Positions 25,968-34,504 of a DNA stretch of 64,000 bases are shown here, piece after piece. Positions within the stretch are counted from its first letter, which is position 1. Every line of letters begins with the position of its first letter. The DNA is from Streptomyces sp. HUAS CB01 (GTDB lineage: Bacteria; Actinomycetota; Actinomycetes; Streptomycetales; Streptomycetaceae): positions 7,409,501 through 7,473,500 of the forward strand of contig NZ_CP129137.1 of NCBI RefSeq assembly GCF_030406905.1. The letters run 5' to 3'. Below the pieces are notes generated by a model, which did not search any database, had not been told where the DNA came from, and was given only the letters and a program-made list of their open reading frames with translations. The position numbers and the translations under genes were made by a program.

Positions 25968-26555
25968 TCAGCCCTCGCCGCCGTCGCCGCCCCGGCCGCC
26001 AGCGCCGCTGAGGTCGCAGCCGATGCCGAAGCAGATTCCGCCGTCGCCCCCCGCCCCGCCGGAGCCGCCGTCGCCCTCACCGGCCGCGTCGCCGCCGCCA
26101 CCGCCGTCGCCACCCGTCACGCTGCCGTTGCAGATGCCGGCGCAGATCCCGCCGTCGCCGCCGTCCCCGCCGTCCTGGCCGGTGTCCCCGGCCGTGCCGC
26201 TGCCGCCGTTGGCACTGCCGTTGCACAGCCCCGCGCAGAAGCCGCCGTCCTCACCCTCGCCGCCGTTGGCGGTGTCATTGCAGTTGCCCACGCACGCCCG
26301 GTCGCCGACCTGGACATTGCCCTCGTCGCCCAGCTCGACGTCGAACGGCCCGCCGCTGTCGCCCGCCGGAAGATGCGCCGCGGCCTGCGCCGCCGGCGAC
26401 TGCGTGACGGCCTGCGCTGCCGGCGTCGCCGACTGCGGGGCGGCCGGTGCCGCCACCGCGGCGGGTGCCATCACCCCAGCACCGAGCAGACCGGCCGCCA
26501 CCACCAGGCCCAGCCGACCGGCCCACGAACCCATACACCTGAATCGCATGAACAT
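25968..26555 (-). CDS. Secreted Gly/Asp-rich protein with Cys-x3-Cys motifs
   Basis: A 195-residue exported protein. The signal peptide (LGLVVAAGLLGAGVMAPAAVA) ends near residue 36. The mature part has an Ala/Gln-rich stretch, then a Gly/Asp/Glu-rich body in which four short cysteine motifs recur: ACVGNCND, FCAGLCNGS, ICAGICNGS and ICFGIGCD. The regular spacing suggests a repeat-built, possibly disulfide-bonded or metal-binding surface protein. I recognise no family. GGAG lies seven bases before ATG 26555; ATG 26549 is an alternative start. It has the shared bipartite upstream element. Confidence 0.75.
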   Translation of the reverse strand: MFMRFRCMGSWAGRLGLVVAAGLLGAGVMAPAAVAAPAAPQSATPAAQAVTQSPAAQAAAHLPAGDSGGPFDVELGDEGNVQVGDRACVGNCNDTANGGEGEDGGFCAGLCNGSANGGSGTAGDTGQDGGDGGDGGICAGICNGSVTGGDGGGGGDAAGEGDGGSGGAGGDGGICFGIGCDLSGAGGRGGDGGEG

Positions 26556-26677
26556 CCCCTTTCTCCGGAGAAACGCCGTCCCTGATTCACGTTCGATGTC
26601 GGATGCCTTTTCCCGCCGAACAGGCGAGGCCCCGGGAAATGCCGAGGAGAATCACAGGACTGGATGTGTTTGTCCCT

Positions 26678-26732
26678 CCAGTAGGCCGTGCCGTGCCCGC
26701 CGCCGTCACGCCGCGCGAATTCGGGCCTTGAC
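26678..26732 (-). promoter_or_regulatory. Shared bipartite upstream element, copy 2
   Basis: Minus strand GTCAAGGCCCGAATTC, then GGCCTACTGG; on the plus strand CCAGTAGGCC at 26678-26687 and CTTGAC at 26727-26732, 39 nt between. It lies about 120-175 bp upstream of the gene starting at 26555. Confidence 0.7.
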
Positions 26733-26980
26733 ACATTTCTCGGTTGTCGTTATCAGCGCCCGGCGCGCGGAAGGACGAGCCACCCGCGCGGCGCGCGCGA
26801 AGGGGAGTTCCCGTGCGGGGACGCACCGGTCCGAGCACGACCGGGGCTCTCCACGACGAAGGCCGGCCGCCCGAGCCCACTGGACCCGGGCGGCCGGCCG
26901 GTGTGCCGGGCCATCCCTCCGTACATGTGTCCCCGTCCGCCCCGTACCACTCGCCGTGCGGTACGGGGCGGGGCGGCGGG

Positions 26981-27520
26981 CTACTCCATCAGAGCCGCCC
27001 AGTCACCGTCGAGGACCTGCTCCCGCCAGGTGTCGACCTCCTTCTTGGAGACGTCGTACTTCTCGGCGACCTCGGCGGTCGTCGCCTCGTCGGCCAGGAG
27101 CGCCACCACGATGCGCACCTTGTCCACCACCGACAGCTCGTCCTTCGGCTTGTCCGGCAGTTCGCCGAACGCCTCGAAGTCCTTGAGGTCCTTGAGGTCC
27201 TTCAGATCCTTGAGGTCCTCCAGCTCCTCCAGCCCCTCGAGGTCCTTGAGGTCCTTCAGGTCCTTGAGGTCCTCGGGATCCGCACAGCCGGGCCCGCCGG
27301 GCTTGCCGGGCTCACCCGGCTGTCCGGGCTCGCCTCCCTTGCCGCCTTCCCCGCCCTTTCCGCAGTCGGCGGACCGGCTGCCGAGGGCGGCGGCATCGGC
27401 GGAGAGGCTGCTGCCCGGTGCGGGACTCTGCGGAGCCTGAGCGGCGCACGCGGTCCCGGTCGCGACGGCCACCGAGGCCACCGCCAGAACGATCGAACGT
27501 TGCCAGAGTTTCCTGGACAT
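26981..27520 (-). CDS. Exported repeat protein with transposase-type HTH tail
   Basis: A 179-residue protein in four parts: a signal peptide (residues 1-27, ending ACAAQA); a short collagen-like Gly-X-Y stretch (GGEPGQPGEPGKPGGPG); a run of about 13 Leu-Lys/Glu-Asp triplets (residues 82-118); and a C-terminal domain whose sequence KVRIVVALLADEATTAEVAE plus KYDVSKKEVDTWREQVLDG has the pattern of a transposase OrfA-type helix-turn-helix. An HTH on an apparently exported protein is odd. The ATG at 27520 has GGAG at nine bases. It lies 134 bp after the glycine-rich gene 28281-27655 and may be co-transcribed. Confidence 0.7.
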   Translation of the reverse strand: MSRKLWQRSIVLAVASVAVATGTACAAQAPQSPAPGSSLSADAAALGSRSADCGKGGEGGKGGEPGQPGEPGKPGGPGCADPEDLKDLKDLKDLEGLEELEDLKDLKDLKDLKDFEAFGELPDKPKDELSVVDKVRIVVALLADEATTAEVAEKYDVSKKEVDTWREQVLDGDWAALME

Positions 27521-27654
27521 GGGGGGATGCTCCATTTCATGTCAAGAGAGGGGGTGCCACCGGCGCTCCCGCGCACCCGGTCACGGTGGGGGGTGGAGGC
27601 CGGGCCGGCCTCCACCCCGTCGAGGCGGACCGTGGGCCGCCGCGCCTACGGCGA

Positions 27655-28281
<627 letters not shown>

Positions 28282-28433
28282 CGCAATACTCCTTTTCGCG
28301 CCAATGATGAGAGTGCCCCTCCCGGTCGGCCCGGGAGGAATTCCGGAGCGGACAATGGCCGGTGAATTCCCGCCGTTCTTACGTTCCGCTGCGGTGCGCT
28401 GCGCCTCCCCGATGTCCGGTGAGGCCCGCATCA

Positions 28434-28488
28434 CCAGTAGGCCGGAGGGAGGGGGGATCGGTCTCGTTCCGAGGAATCGGGACTTGAC
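28434..28488 (-). promoter_or_regulatory. Shared bipartite upstream element, copy 3
   Basis: Minus strand GTCAAGTCCCGATTCC, then GGCCTACTGG; on the plus strand CCAGTAGGCC at 28434-28443 and CTTGAC at 28483-28488, 39 nt between. It lies upstream of the glycine-rich protein gene starting at 28281. Confidence 0.7.
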
Positions 28489-28752
28489 GCATTCCGAAAG
28501 GCTGGGTAAAAGCGGCGGCCGACGCGGCCGGGCGGGGCTTCGCGCCGGGGTGTGCGGGCGCATCGGCGACCGCCCCGAGAGCACGGCCGTGGTACCGGGC
28601 CTGGTTCCGGGAGCCTGGTTCCGGGGCGTCCGGTTCGTGGTGCGGGCCCGGCGGCGCGCGGCCGCGTTCCCGCTCGGGGCGACGGCGTCGGGCGCCGTCC
28701 GCCGGTACCGGGCGGCCCGGCTCGGCAGGCTCGGCGCCGTGGAGTGTTCGCC

Positions 28753-29238
28753 TCAGGCGATTCCAAGACTGGCGTGGATGGTCTTGCCGCCGGGGGAGGG
28801 GGCGATCTCGACCGAGAGGCAGAGACGCTGGACGAGCGGCCATCCGTGCCCGCCCGGCAGGAACCCGTCGGCCGCCCGCTTGCAGTGCGGTGCCTCGACG
28901 GTGCGGTCGGCGACGCTGATCCGTAAGGTGTCGTCGCTCAGGGAGGCGGTGAAGGACGCGACGCCGCCGCCGTGCCGCAGGGCGTTCGTCACGAGCTCGG
29001 ACGTGACCAGGAGTGCGTCCGCCAGCACCGTACCCGCGTTCGTGTGCCGAGTGGTGCCCGGGTCCGAAGTCGTGTCCGTACGCGCCTGGGCGTACGGACA
29101 CGTGGCCTCGTCCAAGCGCCTGTCGCCGCGTGCGGTACGCCTGGCCCGCGCGGATGCCAGCAGACGCCGCACATGGCCCCGTGCGGCTGCCGCCGTCACG
29201 TCCGGCTGCGCCGGTCGCGTATGGTCGTCCGTGGTCAT
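28753..29238 (-). CDS. Anti-sigma-type HATPase (RsbW/SpoIIAB-like)
   Basis: A 161-residue GHKL ATPase. The N box is LVTSELVTNALRHGG, the G1 region ISVADRTVEAP and the G2 loop GGHGWPLVQRL, as in the histidine-kinase-like ATPases that bind sigma factors or STAS proteins and phosphorylate a STAS serine. The N-terminal half carries an unusual basic and Thr-rich insertion. The ATG is preceded by GAGGGGG. The gene is divergent from the SpoIIE phosphatase operon, consistent with a role as the kinase in the same partner-switching circuit. Confidence 0.85.
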   Translation of the reverse strand: MTTDDHTRPAQPDVTAAAARGHVRRLLASARARRTARGDRRLDEATCPYAQARTDTTSDPGTTRHTNAGTVLADALLVTSELVTNALRHGGGVASFTASLSDDTLRISVADRTVEAPHCKRAADGFLPGGHGWPLVQRLCLSVEIAPSPGGKTIHASLGIA

Positions 29239-29494
29239 GACCACCCCCTCGTCGTGCGACCGCCATCGGGCCCGCTCCCCGCGCCCGGACAGGACGCTTC
29301 CTCCGCGTGTGCCCCCTCTCTCACACGGCACACCGTCACCAGTGGACCGGAACCGCCGCATTGCGCGGGGGTCCGGTGGCGGTGGGTGGCGGGATGCGGT
29401 GGCCGCTTGATGACATGAGGGAAGGTGCGGGATGGTGGCACCCGTCCTGACTTCCAGTGGAAGGTGATGAGGCCCGCTCCCGGGCCTTGGCAAC

Positions 29495-31159
29495 ATGACG
29501 ACTTTCGAAGGCTCCTCGCGCGCGTCGCGGGGCCTGGTCCTCACTGTCGGTGCCTCGTGGACGCAGGCGCCCTACCCCGCCCTGGTCGCGGACCGCGCCG
29601 GTGGGGTGGTGGAAGTGAACGCGGCGGCAGCCGCTCTGTTCCCAGGCGCGCTCAGAGGGACACCGCTCGACGACGCGGTGCCCGCGTGGCTGGCCGACGC
29701 GCACCGCCGTGTGGCCGAGGACGGCGCCACCGAGGGCCGGACGGACACGGTGCGCGGCCGGCACGAAGGCCTGACGCTGGAAGCCCATCCGACCGTCGGC
29801 GACAACGGAGACGTGGTCTGGTGGCTCGTCGACGACACCGACCGCCTGCTGGCCGAGACGGCCCTGCACGACGAACGGGAACGCACGACCTTTCTTGCCG
29901 AGGCGTCCACCCGGTTGCTCGCCTCGCTCAACGTGGACCGGTGCATGGAGGTGGCGGTCCGCATCGCCGCGGAACACCTGGCGGACGCCGCGCTGCTCGT
30001 CGCCCCGGCCGCCGGGAAGCGCCACCCCATCGCCGCGGGCGTCCGGGGCGGTTCCGTCGTCCGCACCACCGGCAGGATCGACCCCTCCGCGGTACCCGGC
30101 CTGAGCGAGGCGCTGCAGGGCTTCCCGCCCGTACCGTCCCGGTGGATCGATCCGGCCGCGCTACCGGACTGGGCCGTCCCCGACGGCCTGGACGGGCCCG
30201 TCGGATCCGTCGTGGTCACCCCGCTGCCGGGTCACGGTGTGCCGGCCGGAGCACTGATCCTCCTGCGCCGCGGTGAGAACGCCGCGTTCGACGCCTCGGA
30301 GGAGGTCTTCGCACGCGTCTTCGCCGCCCGCGCGGGAGTGGCACTGTCCGCGGCCCGTCTGTACGCGGAGCAGGCGAGCATCACGGCGACGCTGATGATG
30401 GAACTCCTGCCGCCGGAGCTCCGGCACGTGCACGGTGTGGAGTTCGCCGGCGGATGCCGCGCCTCACGCGACACCGAGCGGGTCGGCGGCGACTTCTACG
30501 ACGTGCACCCGGGCGACTCGCCCGACCGCGAGACGTTGGCCGTGCTCGGCGACGTGTGCGGCAAGGGCCTGGAGGCCGCCGTCCTGACCGGCAAGATCCG
30601 CAACACCCTGCAGGCCCTGCTTCCCCTGGCCGACGACCACGAGAATCTGCTGCGGCTGCTCAACGGCGCACTGATCAGCAACCGGCACGCCCGGTACGCC
30701 ACTCTGGTCCTGGCCTCCGTGCGCCGTGAGGGACGCACCACCCACCTGCGTCTGACCAGTGCGGGACATCCCAGGCCGCTGATCGTGCGCCACACGGGCC
30801 AGGTCGAGGAAGTCGACACGTCGGGAACCCTGATCGGGGCCCTGCCCGAGGTCAACGCCCATACCGCGCACGTGGATCTGACGCCGGGGGAGACCTGTCT
30901 GCTGTACACGGACGGCATCACGGAGGCCAGGGGCGGTCCCCTCGGCGACGTGCTGTTCGGCGAGGAACGGCTGTGGGCGGCGCTGGCCGAATGCGCCGGC
31001 ATGCCCGCCGAGGCGGTCGTGGAGCGGCTGCAGATGCTGGCCTCGGAGTGGGTCGGCGGCGGGCCGCACGACGACATGGCGGTGGTGGCGATCACCGCGC
31101 CGCACGGCACCCACCTCACGGCGGTCGACGGCCACACCCCGGGCAGGTACACGGCATGA
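29495..31159 (+). CDS. PAS/GAF SpoIIE-type PP2C phosphatase
   Basis: A 554-residue serine phosphatase. A PAS-like region (about 20-100) with YPALVADRAGGVVEVNAAAA, a GAF domain (about 125-285) and a PPM/SpoIIE catalytic domain (about 310-545) are in order. Metal-binding acidic residues are in RVGGDFYDV (about 330), LGDVCGKGLEAA, YTDGITEAR and HDDMAVVAI. Such enzymes dephosphorylate STAS anti-anti-sigma proteins. The stop overlaps the start of the cobalamin-binding gene (ATGA), which is itself overlapped with a STAS gene, so the phosphatase, B12 sensor and probable substrate are translationally coupled. Confidence 0.93.
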   Translation: MTTFEGSSRASRGLVLTVGASWTQAPYPALVADRAGGVVEVNAAAAALFPGALRGTPLDDAVPAWLADAHRRVAEDGATEGRTDTVRGRHEGLTLEAHPTVGDNGDVVWWLVDDTDRLLAETALHDERERTTFLAEASTRLLASLNVDRCMEVAVRIAAEHLADAALLVAPAAGKRHPIAAGVRGGSVVRTTGRIDPSAVPGLSEALQGFPPVPSRWIDPAALPDWAVPDGLDGPVGSVVVTPLPGHGVPAGALILLRRGENAAFDASEEVFARVFAARAGVALSAARLYAEQASITATLMMELLPPELRHVHGVEFAGGCRASRDTERVGGDFYDVHPGDSPDRETLAVLGDVCGKGLEAAVLTGKIRNTLQALLPLADDHENLLRLLNGALISNRHARYATLVLASVRREGRTTHLRLTSAGHPRPLIVRHTGQVEEVDTSGTLIGALPEVNAHTAHVDLTPGETCLLYTDGITEARGGPLGDVLFGEERLWAALAECAGMPAEAVVERLQMLASEWVGGGPHDDMAVVAITAPHGTHLTAVDGHTPGRYTA

Positions 31160-32505
31160 CCGACATCCACGACGCCCGGTTCGGCGCGGCCGGTACTTCG
31201 GAGGCCGCCCTCGCCGCCGAAGCCGGGGGAGCCGCCGACATCGGGGGAGCCGCCGAAGCCGGGCGAGCCCCCTTTTCCGGCAAGGCCGTTGAAGCCCTCG
31301 AGACCGACCGGGCCGGTCGCACTGACCGCACCGACTCGACCGACCGCACTGGCCGCACCGTCCCGACCGACCAGAGCGACCCTGCCGGCGAGGCAGTGGC
31401 CGAGGAGACCCGGCCCGCCCTGCTCTCCCGTGCCCGGGACGAACTCTGGCGGGCGGTGGACGAGCGGGACGAACTCGCCGCCGCACGCGGCGTGTTCGAA
31501 CTGCTGGACTCCGGCCTCGACGCGGAGGACATCCTGCTGGAGGTCATCGCACCGGTGCAGCACAAGGTCGGGGTGGAGTGGGCCGCGGGTCGCATCACCG
31601 TCGCCCAGGAGCACGCCGCGACCGCCATCCACGACCGGATCATCGCCGCCATGGCGCACCGGGCCACCGCGAAGGCCCCGGACCGGGATCACGGGAAGCG
31701 CGGGATGACCGTCGTCGTCGCCTGCGTGGAGGGGGAATGGCACGCCCTGCCGGCCCGGATCCTCGCGGAGACGCTGCGCCTGCGCGGCCACACGGTCGAC
31801 TTCCTCGGCGCCCAGGTCCCCACCCCGCACCTCATCGCCCATCTGCACCGGACCGCTCCGGACGTCGTGGCGCTGTCCTCCTCCCTTCCCACCCGGCTGC
31901 CGACGGCGCACGCGGCCATCACGGCGATCCAGGCCACGGGCGTGCCGGTGCTCGCCGGAGGGGCGGCGTTCGCCCCCGACGGCCGCTACGCACGGCTGCT
32001 CGGCGCCGACGCCTGGGCCGCGGAGGCCCGGGAGGCCGCAGACGTACTCGGCCGGGGCCTGCCCCGCCCGCACCTGGACTCCGCCAGGCTGGCCGTCGAG
32101 GACCTGCCCCATCTGATCGACCAGGAATACACGATGGTGAGCCGAGGCAAGCGGCAACTGGTGAAGAACACCCTGGCGAATCTCGAACAACGACTGCCCG
32201 CGATGCGGTCGTACAGCGAAACGGAACGTGAGCGCACCGCCGAGGACGTCGCCCACATCGTCGACTTCCTCGCCGCCGCGCTCTACACCGACGACGCACG
32301 GCTGTTCACCGGCTTCCTCGAATGGACGGGCGACATCCTCGAAGCCCGGGGGGTGCCCGCCCTGGTCCTCCTCCCCGGCCTCGAGCACCTCCAGGAGGAG
32401 CTCAAGGACTTCCCCCGTGCCCTGGACTGCCTCGCGCAGGGCGCGGCCGCTCTCCGCGGGCGGAACCGCCGTCCCACGATCCCCGGCCCTGGAACCGCAG
32501 CATGA
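31156..32505 (+). CDS. Cobalamin-binding protein with B12-photoreceptor motif
   Basis: A 449-residue cytosolic protein. After about 80 low-complexity residues (DRT-rich at 58-68) comes a four-helix cap (about 90-175) that contains W142 followed by exactly nine residues and E152-H153, the W-x9-E-H signature of CarH-type B12 photoreceptors. The Rossmann cobalamin domain (about 184-300) shows EGEWHALPA with His196 as the probable cobalt ligand, SSSLPTRLP and VLAGGAAF. A helical C-terminal domain (about 320-435) follows. No DNA-binding domain is present, unlike CarH. It overlaps the phosphatase and STAS genes by 4 bp each, so it probably feeds into partner switching. Confidence 0.88.
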   Translation: MTDIHDARFGAAGTSEAALAAEAGGAADIGGAAEAGRAPFSGKAVEALETDRAGRTDRTDSTDRTGRTVPTDQSDPAGEAVAEETRPALLSRARDELWRAVDERDELAAARGVFELLDSGLDAEDILLEVIAPVQHKVGVEWAAGRITVAQEHAATAIHDRIIAAMAHRATAKAPDRDHGKRGMTVVVACVEGEWHALPARILAETLRLRGHTVDFLGAQVPTPHLIAHLHRTAPDVVALSSSLPTRLPTAHAAITAIQATGVPVLAGGAAFAPDGRYARLLGADAWAAEAREAADVLGRGLPRPHLDSARLAVEDLPHLIDQEYTMVSRGKRQLVKNTLANLEQRLPAMRSYSETERERTAEDVAHIVDFLAAALYTDDARLFTGFLEWTGDILEARGVPALVLLPGLEHLQEELKDFPRALDCLAQGAAALRGRNRRPTIPGPGTAA

Positions 32506-32915
32506 CCGCATCTCCCCAACGCACGTTCAATGTCGACGTCACCACCGGCACCGGAGAGGTGTGCGTCCGGATCGACGGCGACCTCGACTGGGAGTCGGCC
32601 GACGACCTCACCGAGGCCGCCCGCGCCTGTCTGGAGGCGGAGGGGCCGCCGCGCCTCCTCCGGCTGGACTGCACGCAGCTGACTCTCTGCGACTCCATGG
32701 GGCTGGCGGCGCTGCTCATGGTCCATCGCCTTGCTACGGCCGCCGGGGCGCGGCTGCGTCTGGACCACCGGCCCCAGGCGCTCGAACGGCTGCTGGAACT
32801 GACCGGCACCCTCGGCCACTTCACCGGAGCCGACGCGGGCGAGGCCGCCCAGATGCCCGGGGAGCCGGACGCGCAGGGCCCGGCCGGTGCGACCCCGCCC
32901 GCCCGCCCGACGTAG
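32502..32915 (+). CDS. STAS anti-anti-sigma factor
   Basis: A 137-residue protein with one STAS domain (residues 8-105): VCVRIDGDLDWESADDL, then the phosphorylation site region LTLCDSMGLAALLMV, whose Ser is the likely target of the neighbouring ATPases and phosphatase. A Gly/Pro/Ala-rich tail of about 30 residues follows. The start ATG overlaps the stop of the cobalamin protein gene. The TAG stop lies at the edge of a MITE-like repeat. Confidence 0.9.
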   Translation: MTASPQRTFNVDVTTGTGEVCVRIDGDLDWESADDLTEAARACLEAEGPPRLLRLDCTQLTLCDSMGLAALLMVHRLATAAGARLRLDHRPQALERLLELTGTLGHFTGADAGEAAQMPGEPDAQGPAGATPPARPT

Positions 32916-33557: not shown

Positions 33558-33935
33558 ATGAACGAAGACCTGGAAGTGACCGTGACCCTGGACGGCGACG
33601 TGCGCGTCGTCCAGGTCAGCGGTGAATGCGACGCCGACGAGGCCGGGGTGCTGGCCCGGACGCTCGCGGCGCCCTTCGACGGGACCGCCCTCGGCGTCGT
33701 CGTGGACCTCTCCCGGGTCACGTTCGCCGACTCCTCGTTCCTCCACACGCTCATCGAGGCGCACCGGAGCCACCTGGCGGCCGGTCTTCCGCTCGTGCTC
33801 GCCCAGCCCCACAGCGCGGTCCAGCGGCTCCTGGACCTCACCGACACGGCGCGCCACTTCACCGTCGCCCCCACGACGACCGCCGCGCTGGACGAGGTCC
33901 GCGGAGCACGCAGCGACGGCCACCACGTCCGGTGA
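33558..33935 (+). CDS. STAS domain protein
   Basis: A 125-residue single STAS domain: VRVVQVSGECDADEAGVLAR, then VVVDLSRVTFADSSFLHTLIEAH with paired serines at the phosphorylation position and a C-terminal helix. It is followed 74 bp later by a GHKL ATPase on the same strand, forming a compact STAS-kinase pair of the SpoIIAA/SpoIIAB type. Confidence 0.87.
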   Translation: MNEDLEVTVTLDGDVRVVQVSGECDADEAGVLARTLAAPFDGTALGVVVDLSRVTFADSSFLHTLIEAHRSHLAAGLPLVLAQPHSAVQRLLDLTDTARHFTVAPTTTAALDEVRGARSDGHHVR

Positions 33936-34009: not shown

Positions 34010-34504
34010 ATGACGAACGAGACCGCCACCGGCCGCGAACAGCACTCCGGAGCGGCGGGGGGTGCGCACGAGGCCCGCACCGCACCAGGGCCCGGCGCGC
34101 ACGGAGACCCTCCCGCGCCCGGTGGGCAGGACCGGCGACCCGCCACGGCCTCCGCCGCCCGTGAGCGGGTGCGCCGGCTCCTCGACGGTCATCCCGGTGC
34201 ACCGCTGCTGCCGCGCGTGGTCAACGACGTCCTGCTGGTGACGTCCGAACTGGTCACCAACGCGCTGCGGCACGGAGGCGGAATCGCCGCCTTCCACGCG
34301 GAGCTCGACGGTGGCACCGTCCGGATCCGCGTGACCGACCGCTCCACCGCGCCGCCCAGCAGTGCGTCGCGGCGGGACGTCACCACCCCCGGCGGATTCG
34401 GCTGGCCGCTCGTCCGGCGCCTCAGCCGCAGTGTCACGATCACCCCCACCGGCGACGGCAAGACCGTCGAGGCCGTCCTGCTCCTCACCCCGGACGGCGT
34501 CTGA
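34010..34504 (+). CDS. Anti-sigma-type HATPase
   Basis: A 164-residue GHKL ATPase closely similar in layout to the one at 28753-29238: N box VTSELVTNALRHGGG, G1 RIRVTDRSTAPP, G2 GGFGWPLVRRLSRSV. The first 45 residues are Gly/Pro/Ala-rich and probably disordered. It should phosphorylate a STAS partner, most simply the product of the adjacent gene at 33558. A strong GAGGGGGAAG precedes the ATG. A perfect hairpin follows about 90 bp after the stop. Confidence 0.87.
   Translation: MTNETATGREQHSGAAGGAHEARTAPGPGAHGDPPAPGGQDRRPATASAARERVRRLLDGHPGAPLLPRVVNDVLLVTSELVTNALRHGGGIAAFHAELDGGTVRIRVTDRSTAPPSSASRRDVTTPGGFGWPLVRRLSRSVTITPTGDGKTVEAVLLLTPDGV

Follow-up and report, generated by a model that had tools for sequence, protein, structure and literature searches.

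A photocobilin encoded between a SpoIIE-type phosphatase and a STAS protein in Streptomyces: a candidate light-gated input to a partner switch

We have analyzed a three-gene operon within a 64,000-nucleotide stretch of the genome of Streptomyces sp. HUAS CB01 (contig NZ_CP129137.1), referred to here as the window. The first gene encodes a SpoIIE/RsbU-type phosphatase, the second a B12-binding protein and the third a STAS protein; all lie on one strand, and both junctions are ATGA overlaps. From sequence and modeling we identify the B12-binding protein as a photocobilin, carrying the residues expected for light sensing by adenosylcobalamin (AdoCbl) and for contact with biliverdin. The operon would then be a light-gated input to a partner switch, a reading to which we assign a probability of roughly two in three. 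A first-pass annotation made from the sequence alone had described the three genes and their two overlaps, and the coordinates, Pfam matches and junctions found here all agree with it. It had also proposed that a light or B12 sensor of the CarH type gates a partner switch rather than acting on DNA; the gating gains support from conserved synteny and a dedicated phosphatase clade, and the CarH type of the sensor has to be replaced. The features of the operon are listed below in window coordinates, with the equivalent residues of SasPcob, the photocobilin of Saccharothrix syringae.

29495-31159, plus strand: SpoIIE/RsbU-type PPM phosphatase of the photocobilin-linked clade (PF07228, E = 2.9e-43)
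29567-30403, plus strand: PAS-like and GAF-like N-terminal parts plus a long helical linker (residues 267-303), preceding the PPM domain (AlphaFold2 model)
about 30521-31096, plus strand: PPM domain of the phosphatase
31156-31159, plus strand: ATGA overlap of phosphatase stop and photocobilin start
31156-32505, plus strand: photocobilin, with four-helix cap, B12 Rossmann fold and bilin-binding photoglobin domain (PF02310, E = 4.6e-20; PF02607, E = 2.3e-13)
31579-31614, plus strand: W142-x9-E152-H153, the upper-face AdoCbl light-sensing motif (W61 and E71-H72 of SasPcob)
31741-31743, plus strand: H196, predicted lower axial cobalt ligand (H108 of SasPcob)
32122-32463, plus strand: photoglobin domain, residues about 323-436 (profile and fold match to photocobilins)
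32245-32247, plus strand: D364, predicted biliverdin contact (D270 of SasPcob)
32323-32325, plus strand: W390, predicted biliverdin contact (W296 of SasPcob)
32502-32505, plus strand: ATGA overlap of photocobilin stop and STAS start
32502-32915, plus strand: STAS antagonist with DSMG phosphoserine motif (STAS_2, E = 6.6e-16)

The window protein matches the photocobilins with a score of 262 bits, and the match extends through the globin domain. It has the photocobilin order of domains, a B12-binding domain (cap and Rossmann fold) followed by a photoglobin domain, together with the W-x9-EH and E/DxH motifs required of photocobilins, and it keeps both bilin contacts, D364 and W390. A bare CarH-type domain was ruled out, since the photocobilin match covers the globin domain too. 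The earlier reading was right about the light-sensing residues, and lacked the C-terminal photoglobin domain that makes the protein a photocobilin with a second, bilin-binding module. CarH and LitR possess a MerR DNA-binding domain and no globin, whereas the window protein has a globin and no MerR domain; as had been claimed, it has no DNA-binding domain, giving no Pfam match outside the B12 domains even at E ≤ 1. The light-response signature of B12 domains is given in PMC11796333.

SasPcob (8j2w/8j2x) has the same domain order and fold, the same W-x9-EH motif and cobalt histidine, and the same bilin aspartate and tryptophan. The two proteins are about 45-47% identical; the window protein has in addition an N-terminal tail of some 85 residues that is unmodeled. 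AbDPcob (8j2y) shares the photocobilin module with the window protein (141 bits), and differs in that its output, a GGDEF diguanylate cyclase, is fused and that histidine replaces the bilin aspartate (PMC10979010).

For conservation we drew on homologues from the genus (57 of 150 genomes, E ≤ 1e-30), from the class (47 of 296 genomes, E ≤ 1e-20) and from 42 named loci. Residues were counted over 143 non-identical places scoring above 150 bits, with gaps left out; matches at or below that score, L099 being one, and the duplicate loci L101, L108 and L109 are excluded. The motif reported by the first-pass annotation, W142, nine residues, then E152-H153, together with H196, is present and nearly invariant: W142 is kept in 139/140 places, E152 and H153 each in 140/140, and H196 in 140/141. 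W390 is kept in 132/141 places. D364 is kept in 112/141 and lost in the other 29.

These losses bear on the alternative that what the protein senses is redox state or the supply of AdoCbl, with photolysis incidental and the phosphatase reporting cobalamin status. The B12 site is indeed the invariant part of the protein, and the bilin aspartate is missing at those 29 places. Against this, the hallmark residues of light-responsive domains, W and E-H, are retained almost without exception, and the window protein keeps both bilin contacts. We therefore regard a cobalamin-status sensor as unlikely. Heme oxygenase is encoded in 139/150 Streptomyces genomes, and 54 of the 57 photocobilin-bearing genomes have it, a distribution that shows supply only.

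Within its own genome the B12-binding Pfam family occurs at ten places (E ≤ 0.001): the window gene, a second copy and eight others. The Wx9EH and ExH pair is present in the second copy, and was not found in the stretches fetched for the eight others. The second photocobilin (G000:C1:36462-37487) is 60% identical to that of the window; its locus (L100, G000:C1:28000-46000), near the end of contig C1, holds a second complete SpoIIE-photocobilin-STAS set. Two complete sets also stand in tandem in Streptomyces poonensis (L076), and at L174 (8310-10425) and L175 one SpoIIE gene is followed by two tandem photocobilins and then STAS.

The phosphatase is the constant neighbor of the photocobilin. In 133 of the 143 places a same-strand SpoIIE domain ends no more than 450 bases before the photocobilin, and in 117 of these 133 the phosphatase stop and photocobilin start share a 4-base overlap (ATGA or GTGA). 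When places are collapsed at 80% identity, SpoIIE is found in 98/105 and STAS in 54/105. By genus, the pair is present in 22/23 named places in Streptomyces, 15/15 in Micromonospora, 2/2 in both Nonomuraea and Nocardiopsis and 1/1 in Actinoallomurus; it occurs in further families as well, and is absent from single places of five further genera. The genome of HUAS CB01 has 56 SpoIIE domains above cut-off in 8.1 Mb, so that chance adjacency would be expected around one gene in a hundred (simple arithmetic, ignoring kinship). The neighborhood count leaves out 13 photocobilin places (G050, G064, G096, two in G010, G402, G307, G429, G343, G193, and second places in G152, G355 and G360), five of which are covered by the Streptomyces pairing count given below.

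A same-strand STAS gene lies no more than 450 bases downstream in 77/143 places, and 57 of the 77 have a 4-base overlap. Since STAS is directly downstream in only these 77, it is the phosphatase-photocobilin pair, rather than the trio, that is the constant core. The first-pass annotation had named a lack of synteny in other genomes as one of three refuting results, and this one did not occur. Where the STAS gene is present, its phosphorylatable serine is kept in 76 of the 77 proteins, and the window STAS has the DSMG motif. By its sequence the downstream gene encodes a STAS antagonist with its phosphoserine. STAS follows the photocobilin in none of the 15 Micromonospora places, and every named Micromonospora row that has a letter at the bilin aspartate position (14 in all) lacks the residue. 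In 13 of the 15 named loci (L082-L098) another SpoIIE-like domain, scoring 66-80 bits, is found some 1.0-1.3 kb downstream. Over all places the raw table of bilin aspartate against downstream STAS reads both 76, aspartate only 36, STAS only 1 and neither 28; a link between the two was dropped, because independent pairs on the tree were non-significant.

Phosphatase and photocobilin also tend to be present or absent together. Both genes occur in 56 of the 150 Streptomyces genomes, the phosphatase alone in 2, the photocobilin alone in 1 and neither in 91, kinship being ignored; the one scored as photocobilin only (G057) has a partial SpoIIE domain upstream at L153 (157 bits). Of 68 matches to the window phosphatase in these genomes (E ≤ 1e-45), 63 have a photocobilin no more than 600 bases away; conversely, 63 of 66 photocobilin places adjoin a window-type phosphatase match.

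The linked phosphatases moreover group together. A quick tree was made from 41 linked representatives, 24 unlinked neighboring domains and 49 other SpoIIE domains of the same genome (53 of 55 such matches were taken, and 49 passed a length and score filter); seven domains first labeled unlinked were excluded, as they came from duplicate loci or lay beside a broken or dropped photocobilin. All 41 linked representatives fall on one side of a single branch with a Shimodaira-Hasegawa-like approximate likelihood ratio (SH-aLRT) support of 98. Pairwise identities of linked phosphatases and photocobilins correlate with a coefficient of 0.93 over 130 pairs, a value that common descent alone can yield.

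The phosphatase residues D333, D353, D473 and D527 align with Bacillus subtilis SpoIIE and are invariant in 27 relatives; we take these to be the metal-binding acids. In the window enzyme the GAF domain is below the Pfam cut-off (18.9 against 22.4 bits), and it is found at E ≤ 0.01 in 17 of the 27 relatives. The solved structures nearest to the AlphaFold2 model include RssB, the RsbU-RsbW domains of Rv1364c and SpoIIE. Alignment, tree and model identify the protein as a PPM enzyme with predicted active-site acids, belonging to a clade tied to photocobilins.

How might light reach the STAS protein? In the dark, AdoCbl-bound photocobilin would hold the phosphatase in one activity state, probably through direct contact at the GAF-like domain or the linker helix. 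Green light absorbed by AdoCbl, or red light caught by biliverdin, would break the Co-C bond and change the photocobilin, and this would switch the phosphatase either on or off. The phosphatase would dephosphorylate the phosphorylated STAS protein, which in its unphosphorylated form would free a sigma factor of the SigB/F/G type, encoded elsewhere, from a HATPase anti-sigma kinase. That light controls the phosphatase, the direction of that control and the involvement of a sigma factor are all inferred.

This scheme draws on the synteny, the co-occurrence, the clade of linked phosphatases, the STAS serine and the identity of the photocobilin. It also draws on loci in which more of a partner switch is visible. 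L192 carries a complete cassette that includes a sigma factor, in the order HATPase, sigma-70 factor, STAS, HATPase, phosphatase, photocobilin, STAS, where the HATPases, the sigma factor and both STAS genes were called by Pfam and the phosphatase and photocobilin by profiles built in this analysis; its photocobilin has valine at the bilin aspartate position. Four loci (L181, L182, L183 and L198) have STAS, HATPase, phosphatase and photocobilin by our own profiles, with Pfam confirmation on L182 and a weak STAS match (38 bits) at L198.

Published work also supports the scheme, in that photocobilins modulate enzymes in the light and that RsbU-type phosphatases are switched by partners through the linker. 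Light converts photocobilins by acting on AdoCbl or, in the ternary complex, on biliverdin, and a fused diguanylate cyclase turns over more than tenfold faster when illuminated (PMC10979010). The standalone SasPcob acts in vitro, by protein contact, on a diguanylate cyclase that is a separate protein and alters its activity; the sign of the light effect shifted with biliverdin occupancy (PMC10979010). RsbU-type phosphatases are switched when a partner orders the linker (PMC12143880). The window system would work like RsbU/RsbT and RsbP/RsbQ, in which a PPM phosphatase with an N-terminal sensory part and a helical linker responds to a separate partner and acts on a STAS target (PMC12143880), except that the partner would be a photoreceptor encoded beside the phosphatase and not RsbT or RsbQ.

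A coupling of photocobilin to SpoIIE and STAS has already been suggested in print. PMC10979010 calls the function of standalone photocobilins less clear; by network analysis it has SasPcob potentially interacting with STAS, SpoIIE and PP2C-like phosphatases, and it suggests a role in stress. The species analyzed there included Streptomyces sp. M41. The predicted SpoIIE and STAS partners of SasPcob match the genes beside the window protein. We found no publication that tests the photocobilin-SpoIIE link in a search by title and abstract. What is new here is the counted pairing and the phosphatase clade; the protein itself joins the known photocobilins.

Several observations weigh against light gating of the phosphatase, or against parts of the scheme. 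STAS is not directly downstream in 66 of the 143 photocobilin places. Of the ten places with no SpoIIE directly upstream, five count here, the upstream sequence being visible and the domain absent (L188, L190, L191, L195 and L196); the others are L077 and L150 (interrupted), L174 and L175 (second tandem copies) and L189 (a contig end, with the upstream gene out of sight). FastTree with all 130 linked domains gave the same split with a support of only 0.73. At L283, L285 and L286 a phosphatase of the clade is followed by STAS, and no photocobilin match separates the two genes, showing that the phosphatase can do without the photocobilin. The PAS, GAF and linker parts gave no sign of relaxed constraint in four phosphatases whose photocobilin is lacking or broken, so the proposed contact site is unsupported. 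The frames of the examined loci include no fusion of phosphatase and photocobilin, and a profile search of the 64-kb window gave no match to a SigB/F/G-type sigma factor.

The photoreceptor might instead act on another partner (the STAS protein, a HATPase or a diguanylate cyclase elsewhere), with the phosphatase merely sharing its operon. SasPcob acts on a diguanylate cyclase in vitro (PMC10979010), and two of the places without an upstream SpoIIE point the same way: at L196 (7306-9218) the photocobilin adjoins a GGDEF gene, as in the published cyclase fusion, which also counts against the phosphatase as target, and at L195 (2648-4400, minus strand) a HATPase_c_2 gene is directly downstream. 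Yet it is the phosphatase that is the constant neighbor, which STAS and HATPase are not, and the linked phosphatases form one clade; we think a different partner rather improbable. That the protein is the corrinoid methyl-carrier subunit of a methyltransferase is scarcely credible and was rejected, for its NCBIfam matches (MtgC, MtbC and the pyl_corrinoid domain) reach 28-45 bits against cut-offs of 215-370, it scores 262 bits to photocobilins, a globin domain is present, and no neighbor recurs broadly beyond the phosphatase and STAS regions.

Light gating of the phosphatase remains our preferred reading of the operon. Somewhat more tentatively, yet still on the favorable side, we propose that the standalone photocobilins of actinobacteria target the dedicated PPM phosphatase clade, forming a split photophosphatase that would respond to green light via AdoCbl and red light via biliverdin and feed a sigma-factor partner switch. 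The phosphatase nearly always adjoins the sensor in actinobacteria, belongs to one clade and is co-present or co-absent with it, which names a testable target for these proteins. If true, this would be a B12-based photoreceptor acting on protein phosphorylation, and possibly a two-color optogenetic phosphatase.

Five Streptomyces phosphatases are unpaired: L283, L285 and L286 discussed above, L284 and L287. L284 (3697-5051) has a linked-type SpoIIE separated from STAS by photocobilin remnants in several pieces, and at L287, a distant match (39%), neither photocobilin nor STAS was found. The unpaired enzymes probably reflect loss of the sensor from a phosphatase-STAS core, with gain as the alternative. 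Among other neighbors of the photocobilins none was broadly recurrent; considering only frames of at least 200 amino acids, the remaining clusters each covered 22 or fewer of 106 loci, and the ones that could be placed were antisense or overlapping frames, Micromonospora neighbors or small sets.

The operon is flanked in the window by further genes of partner-switch families.

28753-29544, minus strand: divergent HATPase_c_2 gene, possible kinase (PF13581, E = 1e-7; true start probably internal)
33558-33935, plus strand: second STAS gene, outside the three-gene overlap set (Pfam)
about 34010-34504, plus strand: downstream HATPase_c_2 gene, possible anti-sigma kinase (PF13581, E = 9e-12; start uncertain)

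The divergent and downstream HATPase genes are present as the first-pass annotation had reported. Its view that they provide the kinases fared less well, as in only 37/143 places does the profile of the window's HATPases find one no more than 3.5 kb from the photocobilin. The two are closely related (88.7 bits, ranking third among 24 genome matches, self included), and a minus-strand open reading frame (ORF; from 33023) and the second STAS gene lie between the operon and the downstream one. On the other side of the operon, three adjoining minus-strand ORFs within 25968-28584 (25968-26555, 26981-27535 and 27655-28584) encode low-complexity, secreted-looking products that are Gly/Asp-rich or carry DLKDL repeats.

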